From IMG/VR virus record IMGVR_UViG_3300030329_003696, positions 1 through 64,000 of that record: DNA of 64,000 bases. The stretch is one strand, 5' to 3'. A model generated the notes under the pieces. That model was not told the DNA's origin, made no database searches, and saw only the letters and a list, made by a program, of their open reading frames with translations. Positions 1 through 56,263 of this stretch are shown here, in pieces. Position numbers and translations under genes: made by a program. How positions within the stretch are numbered: the first letter of the stretch is position 1; the number at the start of each line of letters is the position of its first letter. The DNA comes from a virus.

Positions 1-942
1 CTTGAAAAATTATTGGCGGGTGATGTAGAAGGGTTTATTTCCGGTCAAGCCGCCGCTGGTGCTGGTGCAGCCTTGGCCACTGGGGATGCCGGATTAGCCG
101 GTCTGTTTGGTGCTAGTGCTTTAGGTGCAGGATTTAAAACACTAGAGGGGCAGGGTCTCTCAGACGCACAGATGCAGCAGGCTGCTGGTCTAAGCTTGGG
201 TGCGGTTGGCATAAATGATACTAGATCTGCACAACTGTTAGCTGGCACCACTGCCGAAGAGGAAGCAATAAAATCAGAGGGTAGAGAACTCGCTGGAGTC
301 ATGGGTGACTTAGCACAAAATCAGGCAGAGTTTGAAAAAGCAGAAATTGCAATTCAAGACGCAGTAATCAATGCTACAAACGCGACATTCAGTAGGGAGG
401 TAGAGGCTATATCTAATAGAAATGTTCAACCTCTAGCTCGTGGTGGAATGGTTTATGCTAGCCGTGGAATGTTTGTGCCTAGGGGTACAGATACGGTGCC
501 TGCCATGTTAACCCCCGGAGAGTTTGTAGTAAACCGCAACGCAGTCCAAAGGGGCAATAATTTACAAATACTAAGAGCTATGAACGGTAGGGGTCAAGGT
601 GGTTCTAATGCGGTCGCCATGAGTAATGGAGGTTCTGTGGGTTACTATCAAGACGGAGGCAGCGTTGAAGCTGCTGCTGGATCGCTAGCTAGCGTTATAC
701 CAAATCTACAGAATGTATTCTCAGATTTTGCTGCAACAGTAGATAAACTTGTTAGTACTAAATTCCAAGTAGCCTTAGATCCTACAAATGTTAATGTAAA
801 CTTTAATGGTGCTTCTTTCTTAGAAACAATGAAAGAGGACATCAAGACAGAACTGTTAAATGAGGTTGGTGAACAAATTAAGAAGGCCAAGCCAAACACC
901 TCTGGAGATCTCAAAACCGGAAACACAGTATTAGGAAACTAG
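1..942 (+). CDS. Tail tape-measure protein, C-terminal end (5' truncated by window edge)
   Basis: The reading frame is open to base 1, so the gene begins upstream of the window; the apparent TTG start at 13 is not real. About 313 residues are visible. The first part is Ala/Gly-rich and probably helical. The middle (near bases 436-540) carries the Gly-rich, Arg-containing segment followed by GTDTVPAMLTPGEFVV, a sequence typical of the C-terminal region of phage tail tape-measure proteins. A final helical segment ends at the stop at 940-942. Tape-measure proteins set tail length and sit inside the tail tube. The gene lies one base upstream of the giant tail protein, consistent with the usual tape measure to tail-tip gene order. 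Family assignment rests on the TVPAMLTPGEFV motif; the rest of the protein is not visible. Confidence 0.8.
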   Translation, partial: LEKLLAGDVEGFISGQAAAGAGAALATGDAGLAGLFGASALGAGFKTLEGQGLSDAQMQQAAGLSLGAVGINDTRSAQLLAGTTAEEEAIKSEGRELAGVMGDLAQNQAEFEKAEIAIQDAVINATNATFSREVEAISNRNVQPLARGGMVYASRGMFVPRGTDTVPAMLTPGEFVVNRNAVQRGNNLQILRAMNGRGQGGSNAVAMSNGGSVGYYQDGGSVEAAAGSLASVIPNLQNVFSDFAATVDKLVSTKFQVALDPTNVNVNFNGASFLETMKEDIKTELLNEVGEQIKKAKPNTSGDLKTGNTVLGN

Positions 943-943
943 G

Positions 944-3900
944 ATGTCACAGCAATTCTTAAAAAGTTTAGAGTGCCTCTGCATAAAAGGCATTGAGCAG
1001 ACCTGTCCAGCAGGTGGCTCCTTAGAAGCAGAGATGACACTCAAAGAAGCCTCTCTCGTTGCTGATATCAAAAGCGAGGATTCAAAAATATCCTCACCCG
1101 GCGAGAAGCTATCCTGCACCTCTACAGACGTTGAGGTTACCGGTACCGGCCCCTATTACGAAGTTACTATCAATAGCCCCACTGAAAATATTGATGGGTC
1201 TTGCGATTTTATTGAAGCTGGTTGGGAACTGGTTGTTACTAGGGAAAACTTTACGGGTAAGCAGTTTGAATACTATGATGTAAAAAGGAAAAACCTTGAC
1301 GGCACAATTTTAGTATTTGGTTTAAGCCCATTTCTTTTAGAGGAAGGGGTCACGTTTGAGTTTCGTGGCGTTGGGCTAATAAAACGTCCAGACGCGATTG
1401 TTGCGAAAGCTTTTGACCAACTTCTAGAAGCTACATCTGAAATAAATAAGGCTCATTTGGGTGCAAGTTTATCTATTAAACCTGACGAACAACCGTTAGA
1501 AACCGGCACAATATACTCATTTCACTTGAGGCCCAGTCAAACCGTCAGATCTGGTGAAGTCACGACAGTAACATTTATACTACCGCCTCTACAAAATGAA
1601 TATATAACCCACCTAATCAAAAATAATCAGAGTGATGCTACAGTAGTTTTCAGAAACGAGCTTGGCGAGATTATATCTACTGGGCAATTTACAGGCTTCG
1701 TCGGAGAGTCCCTCGCTGATGGATTTACGCTGAGTGGAACTACTTTTCCAGAAGACGAAGTTCAAGAATATTTAAGAGCTGAACTCATAATAGATGTTCG
1801 GTTTAAAAATATGGTGATGAATGAGGGTAGTGTTTTACCTGATCTCACCGCTACATATTCAGTAAAAGAATCGTTGGAAGCTGAAGGAGTCCTTGATCCG
1901 GGTTTTACAGACAAGGTTGTTGGAGACTTTGGACTGTTTAGGTGCGAGCAGAAGTTGTTCCCATCGGGAGACCGAGTCATACAAGAGGGTTTTGGTTCTT
2001 TTGTCGGCCCAAGAAAAGAGGAAAGCAATCTTTTCACATTTATAGATGAGGGCGTTTTTGATGGTTTGATGTTTGACCAGAAAGACGCGTCCACACTGAG
2101 TGATGGTACCGATAGTTTCATAATACCAGATTCTGTACACACAGAGGGATTATTCCAATATAAGTGTAACCTCACAGACTTCACCGTTAGACCGGATCAC
2201 ACTAGGCTGCACATGCGTATTGCTGCACCCATTAGCAATTACGAGTCTAGGATCGCCCCATTATATACCGTCTACAATATAAATCTTCTTGATCCGTCCG
2301 GCAACCTCGTCATTAAATACAAAGACTTTAGTCTTCGTGGTGATTCTACAGACAGAAATAACAATTTTGGAACATATTCAACTGCTCCCGAATATAACCT
2401 TTTCACTGATTATTATGATTGGAATCGTCCCCAAAAAGCCCACCTTTATGAAGGCAGTGGCTATTCTCTCTCTTTTAGCGTTAGGGCTGTTTCTTTAGAT
2501 GACGCCTTTGATTTTGGTTTTGATGAAGGCTTTGAGGAAAATTTTGTATTTCCAGAGATTATAGCAGATGAAGACGGAAATAATTATTTAGCCCTAGATG
2601 GAGCACCCCTCTCCACACAAGAGTCTAGGTTCATCAACCCAACTGACGCGTTTAGGGTTTCGGCTGTAGAAATTTGTAATAGCGGTGGAATAGGCATTAG
2701 AAGAGAGCAATATCTGCCAATCCACATAAAAGTTCCTACAAAAGGAAGAAGGGTTGAACAAGATTTCCTACCGTCCTTTTTACCTCTTTCTAATTTTGAT
2801 TCTACCATCTGGCCATCTGTTAGCAGTGTGTGGAGCTGGTCTTCCGATTCTGATATAACTAATGTAAATAAATGCAATGCAGACACAATGCTGTCTGCTA
2901 TTAGAAATAATGCAACTTCTCAGTATATAACAATGGATTCAGCTGAGGGTGGAGGCGTTGCAGATTCTGGCAAGCTAACAATCAAGTTCTCTAACCAAAA
3001 GGCTAATGTAAAAGATATATCTAAGGGTGCATTCAATTTTGCGTTTGATCAAAGCACCAAGAATATTTGGTGGAAACCTAGCGGTGCATTTAATGTAGAA
3101 AACTCTGTAGACACCAACGTTAAAGATATATCGTTCTTTAGTGTTGACACCCTAACCTTGAAAGTCCTAGCTAAAAAACAAGCTGGGTCTAGGGATTACG
3201 CATTAGACGTAGTAGGATATAGCGACGATAAACTTCTTAACAGAACATCGCCATCCGGAGGTTTTATACAAGACCCTTCCGGTATTCACCTAAACAACCT
3301 AATTGTCACACAGCAGGGTCAATACCCCATTGTCTCGGGCTTTAAAGGTAATTCCAATCAATTTGCTTTAGGTGGTAGGTCTATTTCTGAGCATGATGAT
3401 TTCTTCACATCTAGCGGTAATGACCATTACAAGCTGACGCAATATCCTATGGTTACGGGTACTGATTTTGAACTGTATGAAGTTCCCCTTAAAATCAACC
3501 CCGACGTTGATAAACTTGGGATGTTAAGAGATTATACATTAAGCTCTCTGTTAGAACATGTTTACTTAGATATCTTCCCAATTCCTAGTGGTGCTTCGAT
3601 AGCCCACATCTCTCTAAGTGTTAGATACAAACCACAAGACGGTTTGAACATGTCTACATATGGGGGACCAGTCGCCCGTGCTCAAGATGGTAGACGTGAA
3701 GGTGCCCTGTTCCCAACATCTATGGGGCCGCTTGACAATATATTGAATGCTGGTTCTGGATATGCCCCACTTTCTAGGATTTTAGATATACCTCACTCGT
3801 ATAGAACGCCTAAGACAATCAAGAGTAACTATGCAAGGAGATGGCGTGGTGCAGAAGGTACTGTTCGAGGGCCATACGACCCAGATCAATTTAGCTTTGG

Positions 3901-6900
3901 GTTTGAGAACCCGATCATAGATTATCCCTTCCTGTCTGGTTACTTCAAGTTTGACCAAGTAGACGGTAAGTATATAAAATCTTCAGATCTTGGACCTACA
4001 GATGTAACTAATCCTATGGGTACCCTTAGCGGACTCATGGTTGGAAATACGGATATATACCACAATGTCGGTTGGCGTTTTGCTAGTGGAACACTTTTCC
4101 AGCAGCATTTACCCAGTTATAGCGGCAACTACACCACCACAGACTGGACATCCTTATCCAAGGGTTCGTTTAATTTTGTTGGCGACCCAATGTATGGAAA
4201 AATTGCCGACGCCTTCGATAGAACTGCTAGGGTTTCTGGGGTTCACGGAAACATAAACTTCGGCAATATTGATACGACCAGCGGATTTGCCATATTTACT
4301 AGGTTTACCCCAGACGCTAGTATCTCCGGCCAAAGCCACAACCTATTCAATAGCGGTGTATTGTTTGCTAAGTGGGACACGCCGTCTCAACTAGACTTTG
4401 CCTTGGGCTATAAAAACGGCTTCTTGTGTGCATATGCTAAAGACGATGAAGATGATTCAATAGTTGAAGTTATTGACACAATACCTTACAGTGGATACGT
4501 TTACCCATTAAATATATTATTGACATATAACGATCATCAAAGCAGTGGTCTTAAGTTATATGTGGATGCGGAAAATTATTTTGGTGATTACGAATCTGGA
4601 GACTTTGACCCAAGCTATGACGCACCACATCTTCTTCGTGCGTCTTCAAGTAAGTTTTATAAAAAACCCACAAATGGTAGTCTGACTTTAGGTTGGGGTG
4701 CTGGTTCTGGCGTTGGAATAAATGGGTTTATTAGTGAGTTTGGTGTATCTACTTGGAGTTCTGGAGCGGATACTCTTTATGGCTCCGGTACGAATATTGT
4801 TGAAGCAAATGCTGACAGGACATACAAGCAGGTAACTGCCAAAGACTTCTTTGATAATCTTCGGGTAACGTTCTTTAATTCTGGCGTACCACACGGAAAT
4901 GATCAGTTTGGCTTATGGGACAGAGTCAATGAAAACACTTTCCACGATTGGCAGATTGGCGACTTTAAATACTGTGAATTCTCTATAGCGTTTGACCAAT
5001 GGCAAAAACGCCCAAATAGAGAACAGATTATATTTGATATAAAACATCATGGCTCCGGATACTCCTCTAGGAATGATTTATCCCTACCTTCAAGTATAGA
5101 CCCCAGAGTCTCCTATCACACACAGATAGAAAACGACTTCTTGAGATTCCACCTCAGTGATGTTCCTGACCATTTCTATTCTGTAAACAGAAGAATAACA
5201 AAGAGCTTACCGGCAGGATACAAATTCTCAGAGAGAGCTTTGGTTGTTGAAAGTGTGATTCAACACACAACAGACCATTCTATCATTTGGCCACACTGTG
5301 ATGGCAAAGAGGGACCAAGGCTAGTTGTTAGTTTGTACAGTAAAAAGCAAGACCCGTACTGGACCGAGGATGAACCCAACTGGGGCTTGGTAAATAGAAA
5401 GATACATAATGTAGAACCTTCTAGCTGTGTTATGCGTTTAGACACAACCTTTACGTACAACGATCTTGTTGACACCGATGAAGAGTGGGCTATATTCCCG
5501 CAGGAACCTAGACAAACAGAGTTTAAAGAAAAGTACTTCTCCGAAGACGTTAACGATATGTTTGTTCAGTATGACTTGGTTTATCCTTCGGGCAAGGCGT
5601 TTGAGTCTAAAATACAACTACACTCATCTCATGTAAGAATGTCTGATTGTAACGTTCTTTCTCGTGCCACATCTGGTTCAGGCAATCTGTACACTGTGGG
5701 TGCGTTGGGTGTTCCTTCTGGCACTTTAAACTTGAACCTGCCAGAAATACCTGTACCCACCTCTGGCACGCTAAATCTGGGAATAAACGTTCCGATACCG
5801 GTAGATGTTCAAATTCCTTCTGGGCTACCGCTTAATATTAGCGGTCAATACGTCGAGAGAGGATTTATGATCCTCTATACGCCGGAATTCAATACACAGG
5901 GCGAATTGAATCTATTTATGCCAGACCCTGCGGACTATACGTTTACACCGGTTTCTGGCTCTCTTAACTTCTCCATTCCGACACCGATAGATCGGATTTC
6001 GGAGGGTGACGATTCTATAAAGAATAAGTATTTAACATATCCAAGTGGATTTGCCACATCTGAAGCAGCAGAGACGGAGGCAAAACGATTGGGACTCTCC
6101 GGCTCCCACCAAGACTTTACCGGTGATGTATTCTTCCCAGGCGGAAGATCGGATTGGGATGAAAATGGCGATGGATACGTAGACAATTCAAGAATAAGGG
6201 GTCCATATGTTCCCCTATTCATGTTAAACACTGACGACCCAAAACTAGATCAATTAAACCTGTTTACTTTTGCGGTAGGTTCAGGCTCAGGTATCAGAGG
6301 GATACTTAATCTTTCCATACATAACGAGCTGCCGAACTCAGAACCTGGACCGGTAAGTGGTTCGATTAATCTAAATGTTATAGGTGTCCCAATCTTTAAA
6401 CAGATTAGAACTAATAACAATATACCATTATACATTAATGCTCCGAATATAATTAGTAGCAACCCACTCCCACTTACCCTAGGCTTCAACGAGACTGATA
6501 CGCCACACAGCGGAGAAATGAACCTTTATACTGCCAGCTATAATGTGGGGTCAAAAGGGTTTGGCTCTGCTTATGGTATGTGGAACAACAATAACTATGG
6601 AACAGGTATTGAATTACAAGATGACTATTTAGCTAAAATTGATGCATCGAATGAGATCAGGGGTGTAGACCTCTTTGGTTATGGGTCTTGCACCGGAGAT
6701 AGCCCCAGAAAAGCATTTGATTCAGCACTGATCACTGATGGTGTTACGTGGAGAGAGGCTACATGTAACGACGGTGGAATATTCAGAGCAACGGATACAT
6801 ATACTAATTCTGGAGCTAGAAACTTTTCTGGTGATCTAGGATATAGCGGTAACTATTACGGCATCAGGAAGTTCACGCAACTACTACCATCTAGACCGTA

Positions 6901-9900
6901 CTTTACCGAACTAACAATAAAGACGGGTTCCACAGATCCAATTAAAGTTCCTAGAACTTTTGAGGAATGGGAATATGGTATGTGTGGCCCAGACCTAATG
7001 AACGATAGCGGCTGCTGCACATCGGACTGTGATCAAAACCTCATGTTCTCTGGGGTTAAGCTGATTGGTGATGATGCCTGCGGAGTTCCACCTTCTAGCA
7101 ACTTGTGCATAGACCCTGAGACGATAGTCGCATCCGGAAGAAACATTGCAGATAAGTATGGTTACAAGGTTTCCGTAAAGGGAGATCTAATGGCTATTTC
7201 TGCACCAAAAATCACCATTCCTGAGTACGATCAATACGGCGGCGGTCATGTTGGTGTTCCTTCTGGAGGTTCAGTATTCTTATACAGAAGAGGGGTGGAT
7301 GTAGCTGGCAAAAAGGCTAGTTGGGAATTAGAAGAGCAGTTAATGCTCCCGACCGGATTCAGAAAAGACTACATAGAATTTACGGTACAAAACTTACTGA
7401 AATTTGATAACTTTACAATTTCCGGTGCTAAGTGGCAGATCGGTCAAGAAGGTAGAGAGTTTGGATCTTCTTTAGACATGGCCGTAAGCGGTGATGTTGA
7501 GACGATTGTTGTCGGTGCTCCTAGAGCTAAGTGGACAAGACAGTTTAATGAGATAACTACGTCTGGAGTACCATGCGGAACAATGGTGGTAGCAGACCTG
7601 TTTGAGTACAAAGAGAGTGATATCGCTACAATAGCTTCTACCGCCAAGAGATTTGACATTCTTTGGAAATATTTCTCCGCACCTTGGTATGGAGATTGCG
7701 ATTTAGGATGCTTACCCGCTTCTCAGCAATTCTATCCGCAAATCGACATGAAGACTATAGTACTGCAAACAACCTTTGCCGGAAGAAACTACCCAGAAGT
7801 TCCTTCCGACGATACTTGGTTCGTACATAAGTATATCAACAGGCTTGATGATTTTGATTTGCTTGTTGATGTCGGTTCCGGAGTATTAGGGGGAGAAGGT
7901 ACGCTCTCTGAGTTCTTCAGAGCCGGACAACCGGTTGTGTTTAACGGGATGGTTTCCGGTATGAAGTCGGCATTCCTAGAGGCGTTCCCCTATAACACTA
8001 GCCTACTTTATGATGGAACACCAGCAATATTTGGTATGTTTAAAGAAAAGTCTGGATCTACAGCTGGTGCCTTACAATATACAGACGGCGATGGGATTGT
8101 TCATTCACTCTACGACGAGTTTGAAAACTTCTACAACGAGTACACCTTTGAGAGTGGCGTTTACGATCAGACTACAAACCTAGACGCCAGCGGTCACCTT
8201 AATACGGTTCTTGGGGTTTCCGAGAACTGGGCCACTACAACCGTCAATTTGATACGGGATACGTTCGACTCAGGAAGACTCTCTACAACAAAGACTAATG
8301 ACACCCTGAATAGAGATTTTATAACGAGTGGTGTTGGCCAAGAGTGGGGTGACAGTAAAGCTTATGACATAACCCAGTTTCAAATTCCTCCACACTCTGG
8401 GGGTAGGGTCTATGTGTTTGAAAAAGAAAGGGACAACTTCAACTGTGTTCAGATTATATCTTCTCCGAAAAACTTTACAGACTTTGTAGCAGAAGAAATG
8501 GAACCAGATGAAAATGGAAACTATCTGTTTTATGGTAGAGAGTTTAATGACAGATTTGGACACTCCGTTGGAATCAGTGCTAACAGCGAAGTCATATCGA
8601 TTGGCTCACCATTCACTAATTCTCCATGTAGGATATACGAGAAAGACCCCGACGAACAAGCTAGAGTCTATGCCGCACTTTCTGGCTGGTTAGTAACAAA
8701 TAGTAAGAATGCCGGTCTCTCGCACTTCCATACAATTTTTACCGAGTCTGGTAGACTTAAAGCACAAGAGTCTGCTTACGACTTCTTAACACCTTCTGAA
8801 AGACTACAATTTAGAGTAGACAATAACTCAAAGCCTTATAAACTATCCCACAAATACGGTTACGGAAACATCAAGTACGTTGGAACTAGACAGTTTTTAC
8901 CAAGCTTCTTTGCACCAACGTCTAGACTTGGGTGGAGTACAGCCGTTAGTGACGACGGATCTTCTGTTGCGTTTGGTGCTCCCACCGACTCATTTAATGA
9001 ATTTGAAGACGCTAACGTTTATGCAGACACTTTAGACACTTGGGCTTCTTATCAACACGCTGGTGCTGTTAGAATGTTTGAGGCTAGAAAAACATTTGAT
9101 CATAGCGGTGTTGTAGAGTTTGGTAGGTTTGGCAACTTAGACAGAGCTTTACACCCAAGCGAGGTATCTAAAGGTTTCTACGACCAAATGGGCTTATATT
9201 TTGGTGCGGGAGATGATCTGGGCGGTACTAAAACCTTCAGAAGAATGGATTTCTCTGAAATAGAAATTCCTAGAGATGCGGGCTTGGCTTTCATTATTAC
9301 CCCAGAAATAGACGCAGTAAGCGATGAAATTATAGATAACATTAAGAACTGGCTGGTGCTTGGTGATAGACACTTAGTATTGGTCGGGAACGATCCGGTA
9401 TGGGAAGAAAACGGCGTTTACTCTAAATCTAATGATGTAATCAATAAGATCTTAAAAGAGCTTGGCTCGCATATGCGTATAACCGCAGCCAAGAATAAGG
9501 AGATGTCATTACCAGATTGTGTATCTGAGGAAGATAAACTAGACAATAAATATAACATTACGCCTTCATTACAACCCAAACATGGTGCGGGGTCTGTTTC
9601 TCTGAGAGATAATTTCTACGCTCGCGGTGTAGGCGATATCAGAATCAATATTGAAAAGTACGGCTATTCAGATTACGAACAGTACATGGATTGCCCAGAG
9701 GGTGAAGACTGCGATGGTAGTAAGTTTATTGTTAACGAACGTTGCGAGTTTCCTCTAAAGAATAGCGGAGACCTAAGAGCAGAGTGGCATGATACATGCA
9801 CTAAGACCGTTGGGAAAAAGTGTCGCGTTGTGCATTATACACAAAGCTGGCCTTTACACTTCGCTAATTATACACCCAACTGCGACTCAAAACCTTTACA

Positions 9901-12900
9901 GATAATTAACAGGCCAAAGTTTGAGCCTGTCCCAGTATTAACAACCGCCGAACACCTTCCGGCTAGAGTAATAACATATCCAGACACTTCTGGGTATAGT
10001 TCCAAGTTTAAAGATATTTATGAAACCATTATTGAAGATAAGTTCACACCTTTTGCTGACTATTCTGGGGAGCCAGAAGGTTCAAAACATCTACCTATAG
10101 AATCGTTTAAGATTAAAGAAGATTCGGATTCCAACCTAGAAGGAACATTTAATTCGTTTAATCTAGGAGCTTTAGTAGATCCAGATCCAAAGAATGGAAG
10201 AGATGGAATACTTCAGGGGGTAGCAAAAACCTACGATCCAGACAAACCTATAACCTACAAACGAAAAGATTTGTACAAACCTTCGACGCTGGCACTGTCT
10301 GAGTCTGGCGTTAAGGAAGACGGTACGTTTAATAACTCCAAGGTTTACCTATTAGCCAGTCAGTGGCCAGAAGACGATGGTGGACGAGGTTTAACATTCG
10401 CAACTGAGAATAAGGACAAGAACACAGAATTCTACATAAACATGCTAAAGTATGACTGTAATGAAGTTCCTCGTGGGTGGCACTTAGGAGGATGGACTGG
10501 CAACACATCTCTTAAAAATGCTTATTATGTTAATAGAGAAATAGATGACGCGGATAGTCAGCATTCTTTAGCTAGTAAACTCAGGGCAGAATTCCAAGGT
10601 CGTGGTCTTGGCGGATACTTCAAAGAAAATATGACTATACCGGCAGACGGAGATATAAGCCAAGAGGTTACCTTTATTTGGATAGCGAATCCAGAAGGGC
10701 TACCTTCTGACAAAGAAGTTGAAAAGATAAAAACTTGGATGAATACTGGCGAGAAGAGACTTATAATTACCTATACCGCTGCGGACAAACAAAAAGCACA
10801 GCTTTATGCGGGTAATGTAAATGAGATTTGTGAAAAACTTAATATATCCAGTAGGCCATTCTTTGTGCCAAACGATGGCGAATTCTTTGTTACACCTGAC
10901 CCAGACTCGCACTACTTGAAACCATACTCACTACGTGGTAATCGTAACAGCGAGCAAGCACAACTTACGAATACGTCAACAGAGCCTCTATCCGGATGTA
11001 AGGATGGCTACGGTTTCACACCCGCTTACAATGATAGCACAAGTGTTTCAGGGTTATGGGTTTCCGATAAGAGTAACGAACTGTGGCGTGGACACGTACC
11101 TGACGCTCAGGGCGGAGGCGGTGATACATCTTTTGCGAATGATTTACGACTATTTGTTCCTATCTCGGGTGGTTCAAACTACGAGAATATAATATTTTAT
11201 GATGAACCAATTTTCACCCATATACCCAACATACCTAACCCAATATGGAAGATAGAAGGACAGTCTATAATAAAATTCCCAACAATTCCCCTATCTGGAT
11301 ATAAACTTTTCTTTGACTGGGTGTCTGAAACAGCTGTCGAAAAAGAAAGCTTGCTGGTTGAGATAGAGGGTATCAAATCTCGTGTACCCACAGCTTGCGA
11401 CTACTTCCCGCTGCACGATAAATGCAATTCAGAGAATGAAGGAGGAGGGGAGCTTGACCAAGAGGGTGATGACGCCAGTGGAGGAGTTGGTCTTCACCTT
11501 GACCCGACCCCACCAATGACACCTCATTACAGGACAGATATTAACTTCGTTGCTAGGGGTGAAGAAGTAACAATTAAGTTTTCTGCCGCAAGTAGAGGTG
11601 AAATACAGGGAGACCCACTAACACCCGATACAACACCTAAAACAGTTAGAGTGCTCTCAGTTTCGGGTTGTCCAATTCCTATTGATAGCGGCATAAACTT
11701 CAAGAGAACTGAGAAGAAAAAACTAGTAGATAGAATTGAATACGATAAAAAATGGACGGTATTCCCAGGTGGTAGCAGGGTTATACCAGCTGTTTCTAGA
11801 CCCGTTATGCACAAGAGCCATGATTACTGTCGTCCGTTCCCACCGGAAACCGATGAGGGTTGTGAAAACTTCGGAAATGTGTTGATTGAAGATGGACCTG
11901 TAGTCGTAGCAGAAGAGTACGAAAACTTCTCAAGCTTCCCGAATGGTAAATCTAGATCTAAGATTATACTGATCTCCGACTCTACAATGATACAAGGTCA
12001 ATGCTCACACTATCGTAGCGAAACGAGTAAGGGCAACCAAGCATTTATTAGAAGCCTATACCCCAGTAGGCCTAGCAAAGAAGCTACACGTGGTCTTGCG
12101 GGTGGGAAGGACTTCGTGTTTAGTGTTACACCTCTTGACCATGATAGCGACCAAGAAACGGTCTCTTCTCAAGGTAGAAGCTTCTACTTTACACAAAAAC
12201 TCAGAAGTCCAGAAAGAGGTAGTCCAGCTAAATATCATGCGGTTTCAGGTATGATTCCAAACATGACAGAACCTCTATATAGTCTAGGTGGAGCAGTAGG
12301 AAGTCTAGACACCTTTTACGACAACGAGGATACATATCACCCAAGCGATCTAAGCAGACCAAAAGAAATAATAAAATCAGAAGAGATTAAACAAAGAATA
12401 AGGAACTGGGGTAACGACGCTAAGAGTGATTACGGCGTATTTCCTAAGTTCAGTGGTGACTTTTTGAATTATGTTCAGACTGGTCCTCCAAAACGCGATT
12501 ACGCTGATTGGCCTCAGAACCCACTAGGGATACCGGAAGGAAAAGAAAGAAAGTATATACTAGATGCTGGCGTTGGCGGAGGATTACCCGAGCTAATGAA
12601 GTTGAATAATACAGACTATCTAGATCTTGATGTTTACTACTCCGGCTGCTTGGGTGATCTTTTTGGCTATTCAGTTGACCTAGTAGATAATCAACTTGTT
12701 GTAGGCTCTCCGTTTAATGGTTTTGTTTCTAGCGGAACTAGTGTTAGCGGTATTGTGCAGTGGTCAGAAATCAAGGTTGATGAACCTACCGATGGCTTAG
12801 AGTTAGCACAGGATGGTGGTGGCGGTGCAGCCTTCCACTTCGAGAAAACCGGCAGTGGCCAGAACGTTGTTAGCGAATTTTTACCTTGGGAGTTTGGTTC

Positions 12901-14179
12901 TAAGATTAAACCTAGCAGTGTGAACGTCGGCATATATGATTTCGGGGGAGATGCAACCACGGCTTTAACACAACAAAAGGGTAGTCATAACATAGACGAC
13001 GCATCGTTCATAGAAGAGTACGCTAAGAGATCTGATAACTTTGGATTCTCTGTTGCTATAGATTATGACATGATTGCTGTTGGTGCTCCGAACCACGACT
13101 ACGAAACACTCCATCACCACATATATAGTGGAGTTATACATGAGAATGGCCTAAGCACTGCTTTCCAAAGAAAAAGCTTTAATGCTGAATATGACATTCC
13201 ACAGCATAGTTTCTATGACCTAGGCGACTCTGGTGTTAGGGTAGACAAATTTGATAACCTAAGCGGGACAATGGTCTTGAACAATGGAGCTGTCTTTAAC
13301 TTTAGAAATGAGCTAGTAGACTTTGCAAATAGAACAAAAAATTGGATTTTTGCTGAAAAACTTTACTCTCAGGGCTATAATGATAGGGGGCAATCCGATT
13401 ATGAGCCTAAGTTTGGATCACCTGGGGAGTATGTTGTATCAGTTAGCGGTGCTGAGAATGATAGATTTGGCTGGTCAGTTTGTATTGATAGAGCCAAAAG
13501 GGGCGATAGTGGATACACACTGGTAGGAGGTTCTCCTTATCACGATTGGCCAACTAGCGGAAATCACCCCACAAGCGGGCTAAATAACGCTGGAAGTGCG
13601 TACACTTTCGACGCAATGCTGAGAGAACAAACGCCTAGTATTCCAAATGAAGGAAGCTGGATGGATGCTCATGTATTTGCACAAAAAGTAGATGCGGCTG
13701 AAAATCTGTTTAAGAGAGTTTACCAAAACGTAACTGGTGATAGTGTCACACACTTAGTCACTGGTATAATTATAACAAATGACAATGGAGATGCATTCTT
13801 AGAGGTTTCTGGATTCGACCCCTCCACCAAGGGATTTGTTTCCCATAGACCGTATGTAGATTCCGTAAAATTTGTATTGGCCACTGGAACTCCATCTTCA
13901 GGTTCTATGAATTTGAATATTTCCGGAAGTCCAGTCGTTGTAACAGATAATATGAACCTCATGTTATCGGGTGCTCCGTCCGCAAATGTGTATAATAGTG
14001 TGAATATGTACCAATTTGGGGCACTTGGTACTACTCCTTCTGGAATGTTTAATGGAAGTCCAAGCGGAATGAATATGTTTATGGCTGTTCCTAGCGGGTA
14101 TTCGTCAGGAATACTTAATTTGAACCTTACTTCTACACAGACAACCGGAAACCTAGATTTGAATATACGGGGTTACTAA
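944..14179 (+). CDS. Giant virion (tail-associated) protein with FG-GAP propeller, LamG-like and LNL-repeat regions
   Basis: One uninterrupted frame encodes 4,411 residues directly after the tape-measure gene, so it is most likely a tail-tip, fibre or baseplate-associated adhesin. Visible parts: a beta-rich N-terminus with several Cys; a LamG/concanavalin-like segment about residues 1093-1283; a block of roughly eleven short repeats ending in LNL-x-hydrophobic about 1589-1867; seven FG-GAP (integrin alpha type) repeats with cores near 2072, 2173, 2538, 2662, 3907, 4033 and 4175, each of the form FGxSV...VGAP...G-A/S-xxxF; a roughly 1,200-residue insertion between repeats four and five; and a second LNL-repeat block about 4318-4411. 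Within the insertion, 2775-2846 and 3240-3312 resemble each other (IxNWLxxGxRHLVL type) and 3671-3706 has IILISDSTMIQ, together recalling GldG/DUF4350 domains. Ser-Gly dipeptides are strikingly common. The role in host binding is inferred; no catalytic site was recognised. Confidence 0.75.
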   Translation: MSQQFLKSLECLCIKGIEQTCPAGGSLEAEMTLKEASLVADIKSEDSKISSPGEKLSCTSTDVEVTGTGPYYEVTINSPTENIDGSCDFIEAGWELVVTRENFTGKQFEYYDVKRKNLDGTILVFGLSPFLLEEGVTFEFRGVGLIKRPDAIVAKAFDQLLEATSEINKAHLGASLSIKPDEQPLETGTIYSFHLRPSQTVRSGEVTTVTFILPPLQNEYITHLIKNNQSDATVVFRNELGEIISTGQFTGFVGESLADGFTLSGTTFPEDEVQEYLRAELIIDVRFKNMVMNEGSVLPDLTATYSVKESLEAEGVLDPGFTDKVVGDFGLFRCEQKLFPSGDRVIQEGFGSFVGPRKEESNLFTFIDEGVFDGLMFDQKDASTLSDGTDSFIIPDSVHTEGLFQYKCNLTDFTVRPDHTRLHMRIAAPISNYESRIAPLYTVYNINLLDPSGNLVIKYKDFSLRGDSTDRNNNFGTYSTAPEYNLFTDYYDWNRPQKAHLYEGSGYSLSFSVRAVSLDDAFDFGFDEGFEENFVFPEIIADEDGNNYLALDGAPLSTQESRFINPTDAFRVSAVEICNSGGIGIRREQYLPIHIKVPTKGRRVEQDFLPSFLPLSNFDSTIWPSVSSVWSWSSDSDITNVNKCNADTMLSAIRNNATSQYITMDSAEGGGVADSGKLTIKFSNQKANVKDISKGAFNFAFDQSTKNIWWKPSGAFNVENSVDTNVKDISFFSVDTLTLKVLAKKQAGSRDYALDVVGYSDDKLLNRTSPSGGFIQDPSGIHLNNLIVTQQGQYPIVSGFKGNSNQFALGGRSISEHDDFFTSSGNDHYKLTQYPMVTGTDFELYEVPLKINPDVDKLGMLRDYTLSSLLEHVYLDIFPIPSGASIAHISLSVRYKPQDGLNMSTYGGPVARAQDGRREGALFPTSMGPLDNILNAGSGYAPLSRILDIPHSYRTPKTIKSNYARRWRGAEGTVRGPYDPDQFSFGFENPIIDYPFLSGYFKFDQVDGKYIKSSDLGPTDVTNPMGTLSGLMVGNTDIYHNVGWRFASGTLFQQHLPSYSGNYTTTDWTSLSKGSFNFVGDPMYGKIADAFDRTARVSGVHGNINFGNIDTTSGFAIFTRFTPDASISGQSHNLFNSGVLFAKWDTPSQLDFALGYKNGFLCAYAKDDEDDSIVEVIDTIPYSGYVYPLNILLTYNDHQSSGLKLYVDAENYFGDYESGDFDPSYDAPHLLRASSSKFYKKPTNGSLTLGWGAGSGVGINGFISEFGVSTWSSGADTLYGSGTNIVEANADRTYKQVTAKDFFDNLRVTFFNSGVPHGNDQFGLWDRVNENTFHDWQIGDFKYCEFSIAFDQWQKRPNREQIIFDIKHHGSGYSSRNDLSLPSSIDPRVSYHTQIENDFLRFHLSDVPDHFYSVNRRITKSLPAGYKFSERALVVESVIQHTTDHSIIWPHCDGKEGPRLVVSLYSKKQDPYWTEDEPNWGLVNRKIHNVEPSSCVMRLDTTFTYNDLVDTDEEWAIFPQEPRQTEFKEKYFSEDVNDMFVQYDLVYPSGKAFESKIQLHSSHVRMSDCNVLSRATSGSGNLYTVGALGVPSGTLNLNLPEIPVPTSGTLNLGINVPIPVDVQIPSGLPLNISGQYVERGFMILYTPEFNTQGELNLFMPDPADYTFTPVSGSLNFSIPTPIDRISEGDDSIKNKYLTYPSGFATSEAAETEAKRLGLSGSHQDFTGDVFFPGGRSDWDENGDGYVDNSRIRGPYVPLFMLNTDDPKLDQLNLFTFAVGSGSGIRGILNLSIHNELPNSEPGPVSGSINLNVIGVPIFKQIRTNNNIPLYINAPNIISSNPLPLTLGFNETDTPHSGEMNLYTASYNVGSKGFGSAYGMWNNNNYGTGIELQDDYLAKIDASNEIRGVDLFGYGSCTGDSPRKAFDSALITDGVTWREATCNDGGIFRATDTYTNSGARNFSGDLGYSGNYYGIRKFTQLLPSRPYFTELTIKTGSTDPIKVPRTFEEWEYGMCGPDLMNDSGCCTSDCDQNLMFSGVKLIGDDACGVPPSSNLCIDPETIVASGRNIADKYGYKVSVKGDLMAISAPKITIPEYDQYGGGHVGVPSGGSVFLYRRGVDVAGKKASWELEEQLMLPTGFRKDYIEFTVQNLLKFDNFTISGAKWQIGQEGREFGSSLDMAVSGDVETIVVGAPRAKWTRQFNEITTSGVPCGTMVVADLFEYKESDIATIASTAKRFDILWKYFSAPWYGDCDLGCLPASQQFYPQIDMKTIVLQTTFAGRNYPEVPSDDTWFVHKYINRLDDFDLLVDVGSGVLGGEGTLSEFFRAGQPVVFNGMVSGMKSAFLEAFPYNTSLLYDGTPAIFGMFKEKSGSTAGALQYTDGDGIVHSLYDEFENFYNEYTFESGVYDQTTNLDASGHLNTVLGVSENWATTTVNLIRDTFDSGRLSTTKTNDTLNRDFITSGVGQEWGDSKAYDITQFQIPPHSGGRVYVFEKERDNFNCVQIISSPKNFTDFVAEEMEPDENGNYLFYGREFNDRFGHSVGISANSEVISIGSPFTNSPCRIYEKDPDEQARVYAALSGWLVTNSKNAGLSHFHTIFTESGRLKAQESAYDFLTPSERLQFRVDNNSKPYKLSHKYGYGNIKYVGTRQFLPSFFAPTSRLGWSTAVSDDGSSVAFGAPTDSFNEFEDANVYADTLDTWASYQHAGAVRMFEARKTFDHSGVVEFGRFGNLDRALHPSEVSKGFYDQMGLYFGAGDDLGGTKTFRRMDFSEIEIPRDAGLAFIITPEIDAVSDEIIDNIKNWLVLGDRHLVLVGNDPVWEENGVYSKSNDVINKILKELGSHMRITAAKNKEMSLPDCVSEEDKLDNKYNITPSLQPKHGAGSVSLRDNFYARGVGDIRINIEKYGYSDYEQYMDCPEGEDCDGSKFIVNERCEFPLKNSGDLRAEWHDTCTKTVGKKCRVVHYTQSWPLHFANYTPNCDSKPLQIINRPKFEPVPVLTTAEHLPARVITYPDTSGYSSKFKDIYETIIEDKFTPFADYSGEPEGSKHLPIESFKIKEDSDSNLEGTFNSFNLGALVDPDPKNGRDGILQGVAKTYDPDKPITYKRKDLYKPSTLALSESGVKEDGTFNNSKVYLLASQWPEDDGGRGLTFATENKDKNTEFYINMLKYDCNEVPRGWHLGGWTGNTSLKNAYYVNREIDDADSQHSLASKLRAEFQGRGLGGYFKENMTIPADGDISQEVTFIWIANPEGLPSDKEVEKIKTWMNTGEKRLIITYTAADKQKAQLYAGNVNEICEKLNISSRPFFVPNDGEFFVTPDPDSHYLKPYSLRGNRNSEQAQLTNTSTEPLSGCKDGYGFTPAYNDSTSVSGLWVSDKSNELWRGHVPDAQGGGGDTSFANDLRLFVPISGGSNYENIIFYDEPIFTHIPNIPNPIWKIEGQSIIKFPTIPLSGYKLFFDWVSETAVEKESLLVEIEGIKSRVPTACDYFPLHDKCNSENEGGGELDQEGDDASGGVGLHLDPTPPMTPHYRTDINFVARGEEVTIKFSAASRGEIQGDPLTPDTTPKTVRVLSVSGCPIPIDSGINFKRTEKKKLVDRIEYDKKWTVFPGGSRVIPAVSRPVMHKSHDYCRPFPPETDEGCENFGNVLIEDGPVVVAEEYENFSSFPNGKSRSKIILISDSTMIQGQCSHYRSETSKGNQAFIRSLYPSRPSKEATRGLAGGKDFVFSVTPLDHDSDQETVSSQGRSFYFTQKLRSPERGSPAKYHAVSGMIPNMTEPLYSLGGAVGSLDTFYDNEDTYHPSDLSRPKEIIKSEEIKQRIRNWGNDAKSDYGVFPKFSGDFLNYVQTGPPKRDYADWPQNPLGIPEGKERKYILDAGVGGGLPELMKLNNTDYLDLDVYYSGCLGDLFGYSVDLVDNQLVVGSPFNGFVSSGTSVSGIVQWSEIKVDEPTDGLELAQDGGGGAAFHFEKTGSGQNVVSEFLPWEFGSKIKPSSVNVGIYDFGGDATTALTQQKGSHNIDDASFIEEYAKRSDNFGFSVAIDYDMIAVGAPNHDYETLHHHIYSGVIHENGLSTAFQRKSFNAEYDIPQHSFYDLGDSGVRVDKFDNLSGTMVLNNGAVFNFRNELVDFANRTKNWIFAEKLYSQGYNDRGQSDYEPKFGSPGEYVVSVSGAENDRFGWSVCIDRAKRGDSGYTLVGGSPYHDWPTSGNHPTSGLNNAGSAYTFDAMLREQTPSIPNEGSWMDAHVFAQKVDAAENLFKRVYQNVTGDSVTHLVTGIIITNDNGDAFLEVSGFDPSTKGFVSHRPYVDSVKFVLATGTPSSGSMNLNISGSPVVVTDNMNLMLSGAPSANVYNSVNMYQFGALGTTPSGMFNGSPSGMNMFMAVPSGYSSGILNLNLTSTQTTGNLDLNIRGY
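5710..6543 (+). repeat. LNL repeat block 1 inside the giant tail protein
   Basis: About eleven degenerate units of the form SG-x-LNL-x-hydrophobic, such as SGTLNLNLP, SGTLNLGIN, GELNLFMP, SGSLNFSIP, RGILNLSIH, SGSINLNVIG and SGEMNLYTA, spaced roughly 20-40 residues apart. They predict short beta strands separated by Pro/Gly turns. The repetition is at the protein level; codons differ between units, so it is old and maintained. Confidence 0.75.
7140..9100 (+). repeat. FG-GAP repeats 1-4 of the giant tail protein
   Basis: Four copies of the integrin-alpha FG-GAP pattern. Copy 1 has GDLMAISAP and ends GGSVFLYRR; copy 2 has FGSSLDMAVSG and VVGAP; copy 3 has FGHSVGISA and ISIGSP; copy 4 has LGWSTAVSDDG and VAFGAP and ends GAVRMFEA. 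In the family each copy is one four-stranded blade of a seven-bladed propeller. Confidence 0.7.
12640..13640 (+). repeat. FG-GAP repeats 5-7 of the giant tail protein
   Basis: Three further copies: FGYSVDLVDN with VVGSP and GGAAFHFEK; FGFSVAIDYD with IAVGAP and NGAVFNFRN; FGWSVCIDRA with LVGGSP and AGSAYTFDA. Together with the four upstream copies they make exactly seven, the number needed to close an integrin-type propeller. Confidence 0.7.
13896..14176 (+). repeat. LNL repeat block 2 at the C-terminus of the giant tail protein
   Basis: Six or seven units of the same type as block 1 (SGSMNLNISG, DNMNLMLSG, NSVNMYQFG, GMNMFMAVPSG, SGILNLNLT, TGNLDLNIRG) make up the last ~95 residues. Placement at the extreme C-terminus suggests a distal, surface-exposed or trimer-forming segment; this is inference. 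Confidence 0.7.
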
Positions 14180-27442: not shown

Positions 27443-27775
27443 TTATTCGTTCTTTTCAGTTTTAGGGTTCCACTTGACCCAACCTCTGTCGGGCAACCAG
27501 TTGTCGCCATCTTTCCTTTTTGGAAATAGACCACCTCCCTTCTTATGAGAACCAAAGGATAGTTTTGCCCCGCAATCCATACAACGCAGTTCATAATATA
27601 GATTATCATCTACATTCCTCACTACGAAGCGTAGGTTTTCGGAGCCACATTTTCCACAGACCGTCTCCTCAAACACCTCCTGAAATCTTGCAATCTCAGC
27701 AAAAATGTCTCTTTGAGAATCGCCCTCTATTTCGACGCTTATGCGACCGTTACTAGTTTGATAATTTACCTTCAT
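27443..27775 (-). CDS. Zinc-ribbon protein
   Basis: A 110-residue protein. The frame extends to a TTG at 27787, but ATG 27775 forms a TAATG overlap with the upstream stop and has GGAG eight bases before it, so it is the likely start. Two CxxC knuckles (Cys40/43 and Cys65/68) make a four-Cys zinc ribbon, followed by a basic Gly/Lys/Trp tail. The N-terminal 35 residues predict a beta hairpin and a helix. It is translationally coupled to the probable single-strand annealing protein upstream, so it may be an accessory DNA-binding factor in recombination or replication. The function is inferred from the ribbon and the neighbour. Confidence 0.6.
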   Translation of the reverse strand: MKVNYQTSNGRISVEIEGDSQRDIFAEIARFQEVFEETVCGKCGSENLRFVVRNVDDNLYYELRCMDCGAKLSFGSHKKGGGLFPKRKDGDNWLPDRGWVKWNPKTEKNE

Positions 27776-28545
27776 TAATTTCTCCAATCTGCTACGTAGG
27801 CACTAATATTATCAGGAATCAAACTTTTATCCTGTTGAAAATCGTTTAGTTTCTTGATGGCATCACTCGCTTGACGCTTATCAATCTTTCTTTTAACATT
27901 CAAGCTAAACACAACGTCGAAAAACTCAGTAACGCTTAGGTTTAGTTGTTTGCATTTTGAGTCAATAAAGTTGGCCTGAGCATCACTCATTCTATAGGAA
28001 TCGTCATACTCGCCCTCAGTTTCCACTCGTTTTGTTTGGCTAATACTCTTTACAATACTAGCCGTATCCTTCTTGGTCATCTCTTCAGCGGCGACAGTAC
28101 GCAACCTAAGAGCTTTTCTTAAAGCCCTGCCCTCAGCACGGGTGGCTGCTGTGGCGGTGTTAAACACACAAAACATGTCGTCTGTGTTGCCTTCCCAGCT
28201 ATCAGCCACATCGGAGAAAACGGAGCCGTCACCAAACACAACTTCCCAAATAACAGTGGCTCTTCCAACCTCGTCACCGGTGGATGGAGGAAAAACCTGT
28301 GTTGGTTTACTAGAAACAATTTGCCCTAAAACTAGTTCAGAGACTCTTCTTAGGCCAGCACAAGTGGGCCGTCCATCAAACAGTTCATTATCAGCAAACA
28401 AGCCTAATACGTAGTCGTTCCATTCTGGAGACGTAATATTGGGTGCATCATCCATAATTATATCCTTCACGCTAGTATCCACCGTAGATGGAGATTCTAA
28501 CTCAACATGTTCAAACAAATCGTCATTCTTCTCTAATTCAATCAT
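27775..28545 (-). CDS. Probable Rad52-like single-strand annealing recombinase
   Basis: A 256-residue protein starting at the ATG of a TAATG overlap. Residues about 95-150 run ATVIWEVVFGDGSVF ... ATRAEGRALRKALRL, matching the beta-strand, DG turn and TRAxGRALRxAL helix typical of phage Rad52/ERF-type annealing proteins. The C-terminus (about 186-235) has MSDAQANFID and KRQASDAIKKLN, like the helical tails of such proteins. Annealing proteins pair complementary strands during phage recombination and end repair. The neighbours fit: a zinc-ribbon protein downstream and a nuclease upstream, with SSB and a RecB-like nuclease elsewhere in the window. The assignment rests on a short motif; an unrelated DNA-binding protein cannot be excluded. 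Confidence 0.45.
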   Translation of the reverse strand: MIELEKNDDLFEHVELESPSTVDTSVKDIIMDDAPNITSPEWNDYVLGLFADNELFDGRPTCAGLRRVSELVLGQIVSSKPTQVFPPSTGDEVGRATVIWEVVFGDGSVFSDVADSWEGNTDDMFCVFNTATAATRAEGRALRKALRLRTVAAEEMTKKDTASIVKSISQTKRVETEGEYDDSYRMSDAQANFIDSKCKQLNLSVTEFFDVVFSLNVKRKIDKRQASDAIKKLNDFQQDKSLIPDNISAYVADWRN

Positions 28546-29309
28546 TATTCAACCTCTATAAAACGTTTTGACCTTGCCGGAAACTTTCCTTTAATAGAAT
28601 TCAGTTTTTGTAAAACCTGCTCTATAATACTTTCCTTCTTAGCTAGGGATTCAGAACCTAGAGACTTGACCCTTATTACGACGTACCCCTTACTTAGTAA
28701 GGTTCCACTTTTTCTTAGGTCTGCGTTCACTTGTTTCTGCAACTTATCATCTCCCCAGATAGGAAGAAAATGAGAAGGCCCATCTACCTCTATTATAGTC
28801 TTCAGCTCTGGAATATACAAATCTATTTCTAGATTTTCTGACGGAATAATCATTTCATGCATCTTCACCCTAAATCCGTCCTTCTCAAGGCGAGACTGTA
28901 TAAATTTCTCCAGCTTAGAACCCTCAGTAGCTGCGGTACGAATGGCGGCGATCCCTTTAGAACGCATGTTTTCTTTTTGTTGTGCCGTCATGCTTTTCCA
29001 GTTCTTCTTGGCCATCTTGACACGTTTCGCCCTTTCTTTATCGCTCATTTCTCCCCAGTAGTCAACCAAGCTGCTACTAATTTTTAATCGCTCCTCACGA
29101 GATCTTTTCTTGCCCATTGTGGGGTGAGCACTTCGACCGCTTTCAAGTGCGTTTTTCTGTGCCTCACTTTTATTTTTTAGAGGGATGTTATGTTTTATTA
29201 ATGTTCGTCTAATTTTATTTGGATATGTTTCCAGATGTTTAGCTATTTCATATGTGCTAAAGTTATCGTTATTATACATATCTATTACTTTTTGTTCAAA
29301 ATCTTTCAT
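28545..29309 (-). CDS. Homing-type endonuclease, HTH/NUMOD-like N-terminus and EDxHD (Vsr-like) nuclease domain
   Basis: A 254-residue protein. The N-terminus (about 1-45) is a helix-turn-helix with YEIAKHLETYPNKIRRTL. Residues 65-85 (MGKKRSREERLKISSS) match the NUMOD3 DNA-binding motif of homing enzymes. The C-terminal domain has Glu134, Asp163 (NLEIDLYIPEL), Asp176 and His180 (EVDGPSH) and Asp197, the pattern of the EDxHD/Vsr-like nucleases such as I-Bth0305I within the PD-(D/E)XK group. It overlaps both neighbours by 1-4 bases, which is unusual for a freestanding mobile gene, so it may have been integrated stably into the operon. No intron was seen beside it. Confidence 0.65.
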   Translation of the reverse strand: MKDFEQKVIDMYNNDNFSTYEIAKHLETYPNKIRRTLIKHNIPLKNKSEAQKNALESGRSAHPTMGKKRSREERLKISSSLVDYWGEMSDKERAKRVKMAKKNWKSMTAQQKENMRSKGIAAIRTAATEGSKLEKFIQSRLEKDGFRVKMHEMIIPSENLEIDLYIPELKTIIEVDGPSHFLPIWGDDKLQKQVNADLRKSGTLLSKGYVVIRVKSLGSESLAKKESIIEQVLQKLNSIKGKFPARSKRFIEVE

Positions 29310-29749
29310 GATAGCACCTTTTTAATTTCGTCAATACTCAGTTCTTTTATTTTTAGGGGTTCCACACCAGTTAGCCTGAACACTTCGTCCGAGTCTTCTT
29401 CGCCCGTAACAATCACTGGTACAGATCTAGCTAGTCTAAATAACTCTAGAACACCAAACCTTTCCTTATCCTGCTCACTGTAAAGATAGGACAATTTAAA
29501 TTTATTGACTATCCTAGCGGCTGCTATTGTGTTTTCCATAGTAGTAGCTATTAAGTTGCCGGTAAACGACCACATGTCGGCAGAATTAAACATACCAAAT
29601 CTATTACTAACTGGACTAAATTCTACATAGTTGTAAAACAAGCTGGCATCTTTTATGCTTCGCTCATCTACAGCCTCGTTTAAGGCATTGAAGATTTCTG
29701 TGTTCTGGGGGCTTCCCCCATTACTGTCTGTATAAAAAGCTATGTGCAT
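29306..29749 (-). CDS. Short protein of unknown function in the glycan locus
   Basis: A 147-residue protein. The frame opens at 29770, but ATG 29749 (MHIAFYTDSNGG) has AGGAG eight bases upstream and overlaps the preceding stop by 10 bases, so it is preferred. The N-terminal beta strand followed by a Gly-rich turn resembles the start of a GT-B or sugar-nucleotide protein, and the C-terminus (VPVIVTGEEDSDEVFRL) looks like the end of a Rossmann-like fold, but no family signature is complete. It sits directly after GDP-fucose synthase, so a role in the glycan pathway is plausible. It could be a reduced glycosyltransferase or a regulator. Confidence 0.4.
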   Translation of the reverse strand: MHIAFYTDSNGGSPQNTEIFNALNEAVDERSIKDASLFYNYVEFSPVSNRFGMFNSADMWSFTGNLIATTMENTIAAARIVNKFKLSYLYSEQDKERFGVLELFRLARSVPVIVTGEEDSDEVFRLTGVEPLKIKELSIDEIKKVLS

Positions 29750-30660
29750 TTTTGTTCTCCTAAAAACCATTCTATTGTTTGTTTTAATCCGGTTTGAAAA
29801 TCTGTTTTCGCTTCAAACCCAAGCCTAGCCTTAGCACGAGTAGTGTCCAAACATCTGCGAGGTTGACCATCCGGCTTGTCGGACTCCCAGACTATTCGCC
29901 CCTCATATCCCATCTGCTCACCAATTTCAGTAACTAGGTCTTTTATCTTTATCTCCTTGCCTGTTCCCACGTTGATTGGCTCTGGGTCTACATCCTTTTC
30001 GATAGCTAGTCTAACCGCTTCTGCACAATCTAGTGCGAATAGAAACTCTCTAGATGCTTCTCCAGTACCCCAAACCCTTACCTCTCGATCACCGTTCTTC
30101 ATAGCATTATAAAACTTCAAAATAAGGGCTGGTATAACATGGCTACTTGTTAAATTAAAATGATCGTGCGGGCCGTACATATTAACAGGAATGAGATTTA
30201 CACAGTTCATTTTATATTGTTCGTGATAAGTCTCCAGAAGCTTCATTAAAGTCTTTTTAGCTATGCCATACGGTGCGTTAGTTTCTTCTGGGTAGCCACT
30301 CCATATCCGTTTTTCCTCAAATGGAACCGGTGTAAACTTTGGATAAGCACAGACAGTTCCCAATAAAATAAACTTACCCACCGAGTATATTCTGGAAGCT
30401 TCTATTATGTTAGCACCCATGATAAGATTTTCGTACATAAACTTACCTGGGTTTTCTCTGTTAGCTAAGATTCCACCAACAGAACCAGCTGCGTGTACCA
30501 CAATGTCAAACCCACCATCTCTTATCAGCTTGTTGCATATTTCTTGACTTCTTAAGTCAAAGTTAGAACCAATTCCGTGCAGGTCGTATTGGCTGGATAG
30601 TACCTTGGTTAGGTTTTTTCCTAAGAATCCAGTTGCACCAGTTAGTAAAACTTTCTTCAC
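29740..30660 (-). CDS. fcl: GDP-L-fucose synthase (GDP-4-keto-6-deoxymannose 3,5-epimerase/4-reductase)
   Basis: A 306-residue extended short-chain dehydrogenase, the usual length for the family. It converts GDP-4-keto-6-deoxy-D-mannose to GDP-L-fucose in the cytoplasm. Visible features: NAD(P)-binding TGATGFLG (7-14), AAGSVGGILANRENP (57-71), GTVCAYPK (101-108), Tyr131 and Lys135 of YxxxK, and the fucose-synthase stretches NMYGPHDHF and SSHVIPALI followed by VWGTGEASREFLF. The start is GTG, overlapping the upstream stop in GTGA, with AGGAG upstream. The partner enzyme GDP-mannose 4,6-dehydratase is not in this window and must come from elsewhere in the phage or from the host. It supplies donor sugar to the adjacent glycosyltransferases. 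Confidence 0.92.
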   Translation of the reverse strand: MKKVLLTGATGFLGKNLTKVLSSQYDLHGIGSNFDLRSQEICNKLIRDGGFDIVVHAAGSVGGILANRENPGKFMYENLIMGANIIEASRIYSVGKFILLGTVCAYPKFTPVPFEEKRIWSGYPEETNAPYGIAKKTLMKLLETYHEQYKMNCVNLIPVNMYGPHDHFNLTSSHVIPALILKFYNAMKNGDREVRVWGTGEASREFLFALDCAEAVRLAIEKDVDPEPINVGTGKEIKIKDLVTEIGEQMGYEGRIVWESDKPDGQPRRCLDTTRAKARLGFEAKTDFQTGLKQTIEWFLGEQKCT

Positions 30661-31370
30661 ACCATTCTCCTTTGTTTAAAATTCTTCCAAGCCTTACAGT
30701 CGATTGTCCAAGGTTTGAATTTGTACCAATAGTGATTTATACAAATCTCGTTAAAGTCGTCGCAGAAGCCAGCACAATTATTCCATCTCCAATCTATCTC
30801 CTTGTCCGTATAATTGTAGTCAATATACCTGAAGTAATTGTAGAGCATCGCTTGGTCTGTTCCGGGACAGAGAAAGGCCGTGTGAAGATTTTGGTAATGA
30901 ACTATATTCTTAAAGTCTAAGATAGTTGGATCACTACAAACCTGAAGTCCACTGTTCAAGAACTTAAACGGTATATGCGAAGTATGCCCCGGAATATTCT
31001 GGTGATCTACCGTTATAAATGGCTTCCTTGTCGAGGCTTCGAGTAGTGGCTCTATATCCCTCATAATTATAGCGTCCGCATCTATAAATATAAACGGCTC
31101 AGGTTCTGAGCAAAGGTTATAAAGTTTAAAACCTACATTGTGTCTAGATTTGTCACTAATTAGGTTATTGGGGAGTACGGTGTCTATATCTAATCTATCT
31201 TTTCTATGATAGCTAACCCTGCTAGAGTCTTCTAGATCTAGATGAATGGAGTCTTCGTACCAAACCTCTATAGGTATACTGGAATACTTTAGAGCACTTT
31301 TCAACCACCAGTCGCAAAGGTCATTGTATTCTTCGCTGTTCGGAAAGTTGAATATTGTTACTATCTTCAT
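30657..31370 (-). CDS. GT-A type glycosyltransferase
   Basis: A 237-residue protein with the GT-A hallmark DxD in FIFIDADAII (Asp97, Asp99), which binds the metal and sugar nucleotide. A nearby FLNSGLQV segment matches the acceptor-side loop of GT8/GT32-like enzymes. There is no signal peptide or membrane segment, so it should act in the cytoplasm. It overlaps fcl by four bases and the sulfotransferase by four, suggesting coordinated expression. Donor and acceptor cannot be read from the sequence. Confidence 0.7.
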   Translation of the reverse strand: MKIVTIFNFPNSEEYNDLCDWWLKSALKYSSIPIEVWYEDSIHLDLEDSSRVSYHRKDRLDIDTVLPNNLISDKSRHNVGFKLYNLCSEPEPFIFIDADAIIMRDIEPLLEASTRKPFITVDHQNIPGHTSHIPFKFLNSGLQVCSDPTILDFKNIVHYQNLHTAFLCPGTDQAMLYNYFRYIDYNYTDKEIDWRWNNCAGFCDDFNEICINHYWYKFKPWTIDCKAWKNFKQRRMV

Positions 31371-33178: not shown

Positions 33179-33179
33179 A

Positions 33180-35414: not shown

Positions 35415-35430
35415 ATATATTATATCCCCC

Positions 35431-37791: not shown

Positions 37792-37794
37792 CTA

Positions 37795-56262: not shown

Positions 56263-56263
56263 A

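Follow-up and report, generated by a model that had tools for sequence, protein, structure and literature searches.

FG-GAP propellers, the αI insertions of integrins and the presence of propellers in phage receptor-binding proteins are all already known. Integrin α chains (αL, αM, αX and αE) carry seven FG-GAP blades, with the αI domain inserted between blades 2 and 3 (PMC3192720), and the receptor-binding protein of Staphylococcus phage 80α is trimeric and possesses a five-bladed β-propeller (PMC7048315). Bacteria have propellers of the FG-GAP_2 family (PF14312), as in the Chlorobiota protein L220, and the viral structure library BFVD holds predicted FG-GAP or propeller-like folds in A0A6J5S3H5 (uncultured Caudovirales) and in a 'hemagglutinin' of Agrobacterium phage Atu_ph07. 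In the literature that we searched we found neither a description of a split seven-bladed phage tail propeller with two conserved insertions nor a paper linking FG-GAP to jumbo phages or to phage receptor binding.

Here we analyzed a stretch of 64,000 nucleotides (positions 1 to 64,000 of the IMG/VR virus record IMGVR_UViG_3300030329_003696, hereafter the window), whose second gene (944-14179) encodes a putative giant tail protein of 4411 aa that carries a split propeller; all features of this gene lie on the plus strand. Similar to the integrin α chains, which are the best fold match of its first four blades, the protein has seven FG-GAP blades and, at blade 2, an α/β domain with a MIDAS-like motif that strand parity places on the same face as αI. 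However, the phage domain is inserted inside blade 2 (in the 2-3 loop) rather than between blades 2 and 3 and, unlike αI, has no vWA sequence match; moreover, a second insertion of ~1,100 aa separates blades 4 and 5 in the phage protein only, and the Ca2+ motifs (DxDxDG) of integrin blades 5-7 are not in its propeller. As judged from its sequence the 4411-aa protein is not an integrin α subunit, because it shares neither the calcium motifs of blades 5-7 nor the position of αI. The bacterial FG-GAP_2 propellers have the same repeat and strand order, but the repeats of L220 are uninterrupted whereas the phage tail gene has two conserved insertions. With phage 80α the likeness lies in the use of a β-propeller as platform in a siphophage host-recognition protein, and no sequence link was found between the two proteins; the matches to A0A6J5S3H5 and Atu_ph07 are local, and neither was seen to have a tape-measure gene as neighbor or this pair of insertions.

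The reading that we favor, and consider probable, is that of a giant tail-tip protein in which one seven-bladed FG-GAP ring serves as a platform and a variable arm contacts the host. The gene would specify such a protein in a family of large uncultured phages, and blades 1-4 and 5-7 would close across the insertion of ~1,100 residues to form an integrin-type seven-bladed core. The arm (in a 4-1 loop) and the α/β domain (in the 2-3 loop of blade 2) would then leave the same face, the one where the αI domain projects in leukocyte integrins, so that the propeller would act as the conserved platform and the arm as the variable part, contacting host surface glycans or proteins and being swapped among related phages. 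If this is true, the adhesion wheel of animal integrins doubles as a phage tail scaffold that carries large modules at fixed loops in dozens of genomes, and, with the platform conserved and the arm exchangeable, the host range of uncultured phages gains a testable address.

Seven FG-GAP blades in two groups

Pfam FG-GAP_2 (PF14312) is matched in the 4411-aa protein at E=6.2e-18 (65.2 bits, with a cut-off of 23), as it is in 68/68 family members. When units were placed by aligning the relatives, FG-GAP motifs were found to start at residues 2072, 2173, 2538, 2662, 3907, 4033 and 4175. Blade 1 (7139-7351, residues 2066-2136) is supported by Pfam FG-GAP_2, profiles and the structural model described below, and blades 3 (8540-8863, residues 2533-2640) and 4 (8909-9148, residues 2656-2735) by the alignment, profiles and the model. 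Blade 2 comes in two parts, strands 1-2 (7442-7534, residues 2167-2197; alignment, profiles and model) and strands 3-4 (8396-8467, residues 2485-2508; alignment, profile scan and model). After these four blades follows a gap of ~1,170 residues and then the remaining three, namely blade 5 (12644-12913, residues 3901-3990), blade 6 (13025-13369, residues 4028-4142) and blade 7 (13448-13663, residues 4169-4240), each recognized by alignment and profiles and blade 6 by Pfam as well. The propeller extends from 7139 to 13663, in good agreement with the span of 7140-13640 given in the original prediction, which had also put the distance between blades 4 and 5 close to our measurement, at about 1,200 residues.

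In blade-against-blade profile-profile comparisons 20/21 pairs were related at E between 2e-19 and 6e-5, the weakest pair being blades 4 and 7 (E 9.5e-4), and in the control comparisons of blades with Rossmann-like segments of the large insertion 27/28 gave E>=0.027 (lowest 0.0023). A scan of the rest of the protein with each blade profile revealed no eighth blade, and the claim of exactly seven copies therefore holds. The Gly of FG and the Pro of GAP were scored as the conserved positions in common with the Cage motif (PMC3192720). The former is kept in 66-68/68 members in every blade and the latter in 66-68/68 for blades 1-6 and 41/68 for blade 7. The Ca2+-binding DxDxDG is absent from the whole propeller of the 4411-aa protein, and across the family it occurs 16 times in 68 propeller regions, chiefly at blade 4.

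The family was opened by a two-sequence alignment of the window protein and a second copy on contig C9, the only match among 97 related genomes and a member of the same bin. A scan of IMG/VR with the single 4411-aa protein as query gave no matches, and none came from tblastn of INPHARED or from sequence searches of the PDB. Successive searches of IMG/VR yielded 16, then 70, 54 and 78 loci, which overlap heavily and amount to ~80 contigs with homologues. As starting set we took 137 ORFs that were hit at both blade 4 and blade 5, and found that 127 of them have all seven blades and both insertions in order; the exceptions that could be read were truncated at contig ends or had a weak blade-6 hit that was misplaced. 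Of these 127, 67 are non-redundant (<95% mutual identity), with a lowest pairwise identity of 26%. An insertion-free relative did not turn up in these searches, which were run with conserved peptides and could have missed a very distant one.

An AlphaFold2 model of blades 1-4 (residues 2045-2748, from 68 sequences) reached a pLDDT of 84.5 and a pTM of 0.76 and shows the four blades as an open arc, like consecutive blades of the seven-bladed integrin ring. When this model was compared with known structures by VIA-align, rows 1-45 were all integrin α chains (best Z 16.3, 2.6 Å over 197 residues), and the top non-integrin row had a Z of 12.2. The original prediction of an integrin-like propeller is thus upheld for the fold of blades 1-4, which is where the model applies; blades 5-7 are assigned by profile alone. 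We regard one closed seven-bladed ring as the likeliest reading, since blades 1-4 match integrin α chains in the 45 best rows.

An α/β domain within blade 2

Overlooked in the first reading of the DNA was an insertion within blade 2 (7535-8395, residues ~2198-2484), which lies after the GAP strand (strand 2) and before the third strand, is present in every intact relative with a length of 229-283 aa (median 242), and appears as an α/β domain in the AlphaFold2 model of residues 2045-2748. One strand of this domain ends, in the model, with a MIDAS-like motif [DE]x[ST]xS (8045-8059, residues 2368-2372), identified from the 68-member alignment, in which the first position is D in 52/68 and E in 16/68, the third is S in 50/68 and T in 18/68, and the fifth is S in 67/68. 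The 4411-aa protein itself carries ExSxS (EKSGS) and not DxSxS. A DxSxS-type motif is the form that the MIDAS takes in vWA and αI domains, and the insertion is located close to where αI sits in integrins.

In a Foldseek search the six best PDB matches were αI-bearing integrins (E 7.9e-7 to 2.5e-4, in alignments with long gaps), and integrins that lack αI followed at E about 1e-2; long gapped alignments also arise with other FG-GAP proteins in BFVD. VWA was not among the Pfam matches of the 68 members at E<=1, hhalign of the insertion against the vWA profile gave a non-significant E of 0.07, and a PDB profile search with the insertion returned no hit. Kinship with vWA was also tried by profile with the domain doubled to allow for circular permutation, and was again not significant. 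As none of these family and profile comparisons with vWA was significant, we treat the αI-likeness of this domain as a lead. A fuller analogy, in which the protein would be an integrin-α-like phage headpiece with a seven-bladed ring, a metal-binding αI-like (possibly a permuted vWA) domain and a swappable arm on the same face, and would bind the host in a metal-dependent manner, is conceivable although we think it rather unlikely.

The arm between blades 4 and 5

The large insertion, or arm (9149-12613, residues 2736-3890, ~1,155 residues), is present in all 67 non-redundant relatives with a length of 962-1271 aa (median 1079). That other domains lie between blades 4 and 5 had been proposed, and we do see candidate DUF4350/GATase1-like units and a probable jelly roll there. 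Unit 1 has a first half at 9236-9523 (residues 2765-2860; Pfam in relatives, and profile) and a possible second half at 10307-10528 (residues 3122-3195), seen by its weak similarity to residues 3640-3715; unit 2 has a first half at 10616-10918 (residues 3225-3325) and a possible second half at 11861-12088 (residues 3640-3715), both from profiles. By profile comparison the two first halves are related (E 3.4e-10) and the two second halves weakly similar (E 7e-4), which suggests a tandem of two GATase1-like units in the arm, with a beta-rich segment interrupting each. The segment within unit 2 (10919-11860, residues 3326-3639) contains, in the model of a relative (L037), a carbohydrate-binding-module-like jelly roll that matches CBM folds at VIA-align Z of about 10-11, the model being locally better in this part and of low confidence overall. 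Pfam DUF4350 is matched in the arm of 10/13 members (best E 1.7e-7) and ABC_transp_aux in 3/13; in the 4411-aa protein itself DUF4350 scores 17.7 bits, under the cut-off of 30.4.

These domains bear on whether the arm might instead modify the host envelope, as an enzyme or depolymerase, with the propeller as a mere holder and receptor binding assigned to another tail protein. The DUF4350/GATase1-like units do resemble an enzyme superfamily and a tail-spike-like protein (phrog_4636) is also encoded on C7, the contig of the window, but the sequence analysis picked out no catalytic residues and DUF4350 is a family without a known function, and we hold this alternative to be unlikely.

The arm also changes faster than the blades. 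In closely related pairs compared by Fisher tests (p from 2e-6 to 6e-11), amino-acid differences in arm and blades were 3.5 vs 0.4% (p=2e-6), 10.1 vs 4.1% (p=1e-6) and 19.6 vs 8.7% (p=6e-11), and a fourth pair gave 15.7 vs 7.3%. Two independent comparisons also showed a synonymous divergence that was higher in the arm than in the blade halves by a factor of ~1.6 to 3 (0.160 vs 0.053 and 0.588 vs 0.374; permutation p=0.0005), and because it too is raised there, arm segments appear to be exchanged between phages by recombination. In the pair L028-L038 synonymous divergence was equal and amino-acid change was faster in the arm. The faster change fits a module in contact with the host and could in part reflect relaxed constraint. 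The original prediction had suggested a receptor-binding head formed by the propeller; since sequence variation concentrates in the arm, the arm is the likelier specificity part, and it is there that we would expect receptor binding.

Probable ring closure and the tail context

The strands of a propeller blade alternate in direction, so that the 2-3 loops and the 4-1 loops share one face. The large insertion comes after strand 4 of blade 4, that is in a 4-1 loop, and the insertion in blade 2 occupies a 2-3 loop, and by strand parity both should project from the same face of the wheel. This differs from the original proposal of an arm leaving from the edge, as parity puts the exit of the insertion on a face and not on the rim.

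A single ring within one chain has to be weighed against completion between chains, in which blades 1-4 would pair with blades 5-7 of another protomer in a tail-tip oligomer, with the insertion as linker. Phage tail-tip proteins are often oligomeric, the long insertion would permit such a swap, and the designed protein Ika4 is among the matches of the four-blade arc (Z 11.1). Closure within the chain is, however, simpler, and the insertion varies in length (962-1271 aa) without blades ever being lost, which leaves the interchain arrangement distinctly improbable. Even less probable, in our view, are two independent partial folds of four and three blades. More than 1,100 residues lie between the halves, and they are not joined in any confident model; for the relative L037, a model running from blade 4 through the insertion to blade 5 (1189 residues, 13 sequences) had a mean pLDDT of 49.5, with the blades below 50. 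Yet the arc of blades 1-4 matches seven-bladed integrins, the sum of four and three is kept at seven in every intact relative, and the three-blade half itself counts against this reading because we know of no stable natural three-bladed propeller. A single closed ring, which we prefer, would make this protein a clear example from nature of how a propeller can accommodate an insertion of 1,000 residues.

Upstream of the propeller gene the window opens with the last 313 codons of a tape-measure gene (1-942, plus strand; 2178 aa overall and mostly outside the window; best PHROGs E 2.8e-27). One MAG bin contains both C7 and C9, which are large-phage contigs, related yet distinct, with an identical order of the tail module; on both the upstream neighbor matches tape-measure families, and a tape-measure gene stands immediately upstream in 63/64 loci where the neighbor could be read. 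In siphophages the genes downstream of the tape measure specify the tail tip, and a structural hub protein is another possible product of the gene in this place. As its gene follows the tape-measure gene, we infer that the 4411-aa protein sits at the tail tip. Scanned jointly, C7 and C9 encode a terminase large subunit, rIIA, rIIB, PhoH, ribonucleotide reductase and virion structural proteins, and a 668-aa protein of C9 has 26% identity to terminases of Bacillus phages. The phage origin and the tail context assumed from the start are thus supported, and a bacterial adhesin or assembly artefact, suggested by the binning of the window with a bacterial genome, is scarcely credible in view of the phage hallmark genes, the tape-measure neighbor, the ~80 viral contigs and the fact that bacterial bins gave just a single comparable hit.

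Elsewhere in the giant gene, stretches rich in SGxLNL-type repeats flank the propeller region (5654-6568, residues ~1571-1875, and 13889-14176, residues 4316-4411), and a single DENGDG motif resembling a calcium loop (6158-6175, residue 1739) lies outside the propeller. An impression of a LamG-like domain near the N-terminus (residues ~1076-1300) found no Pfam support.

On the minus strand, the tail module is adjoined by ~20 consecutive genes, mostly of 140-370 aa (~27443-44311), including those for glycosyltransferase-like, NTP-transferase-like, DUF6625 and DUF559 proteins. DNA polymerase III α is encoded on the same strand as two genes (44678-48902), the break falling close to where the finger domain starts, and between the halves lie genes for an RNase_T exonuclease and an Endonuclease_7-like protein. 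Three neighboring minus-strand genes (55051-56292, 56846-58108 and 58273-59532) belong to DUF1501, a family known mainly from bacterial genomes, and a homologue of IMP dehydrogenase / GMP reductase (E 3e-65) lies at 62491-63567 on the same strand.
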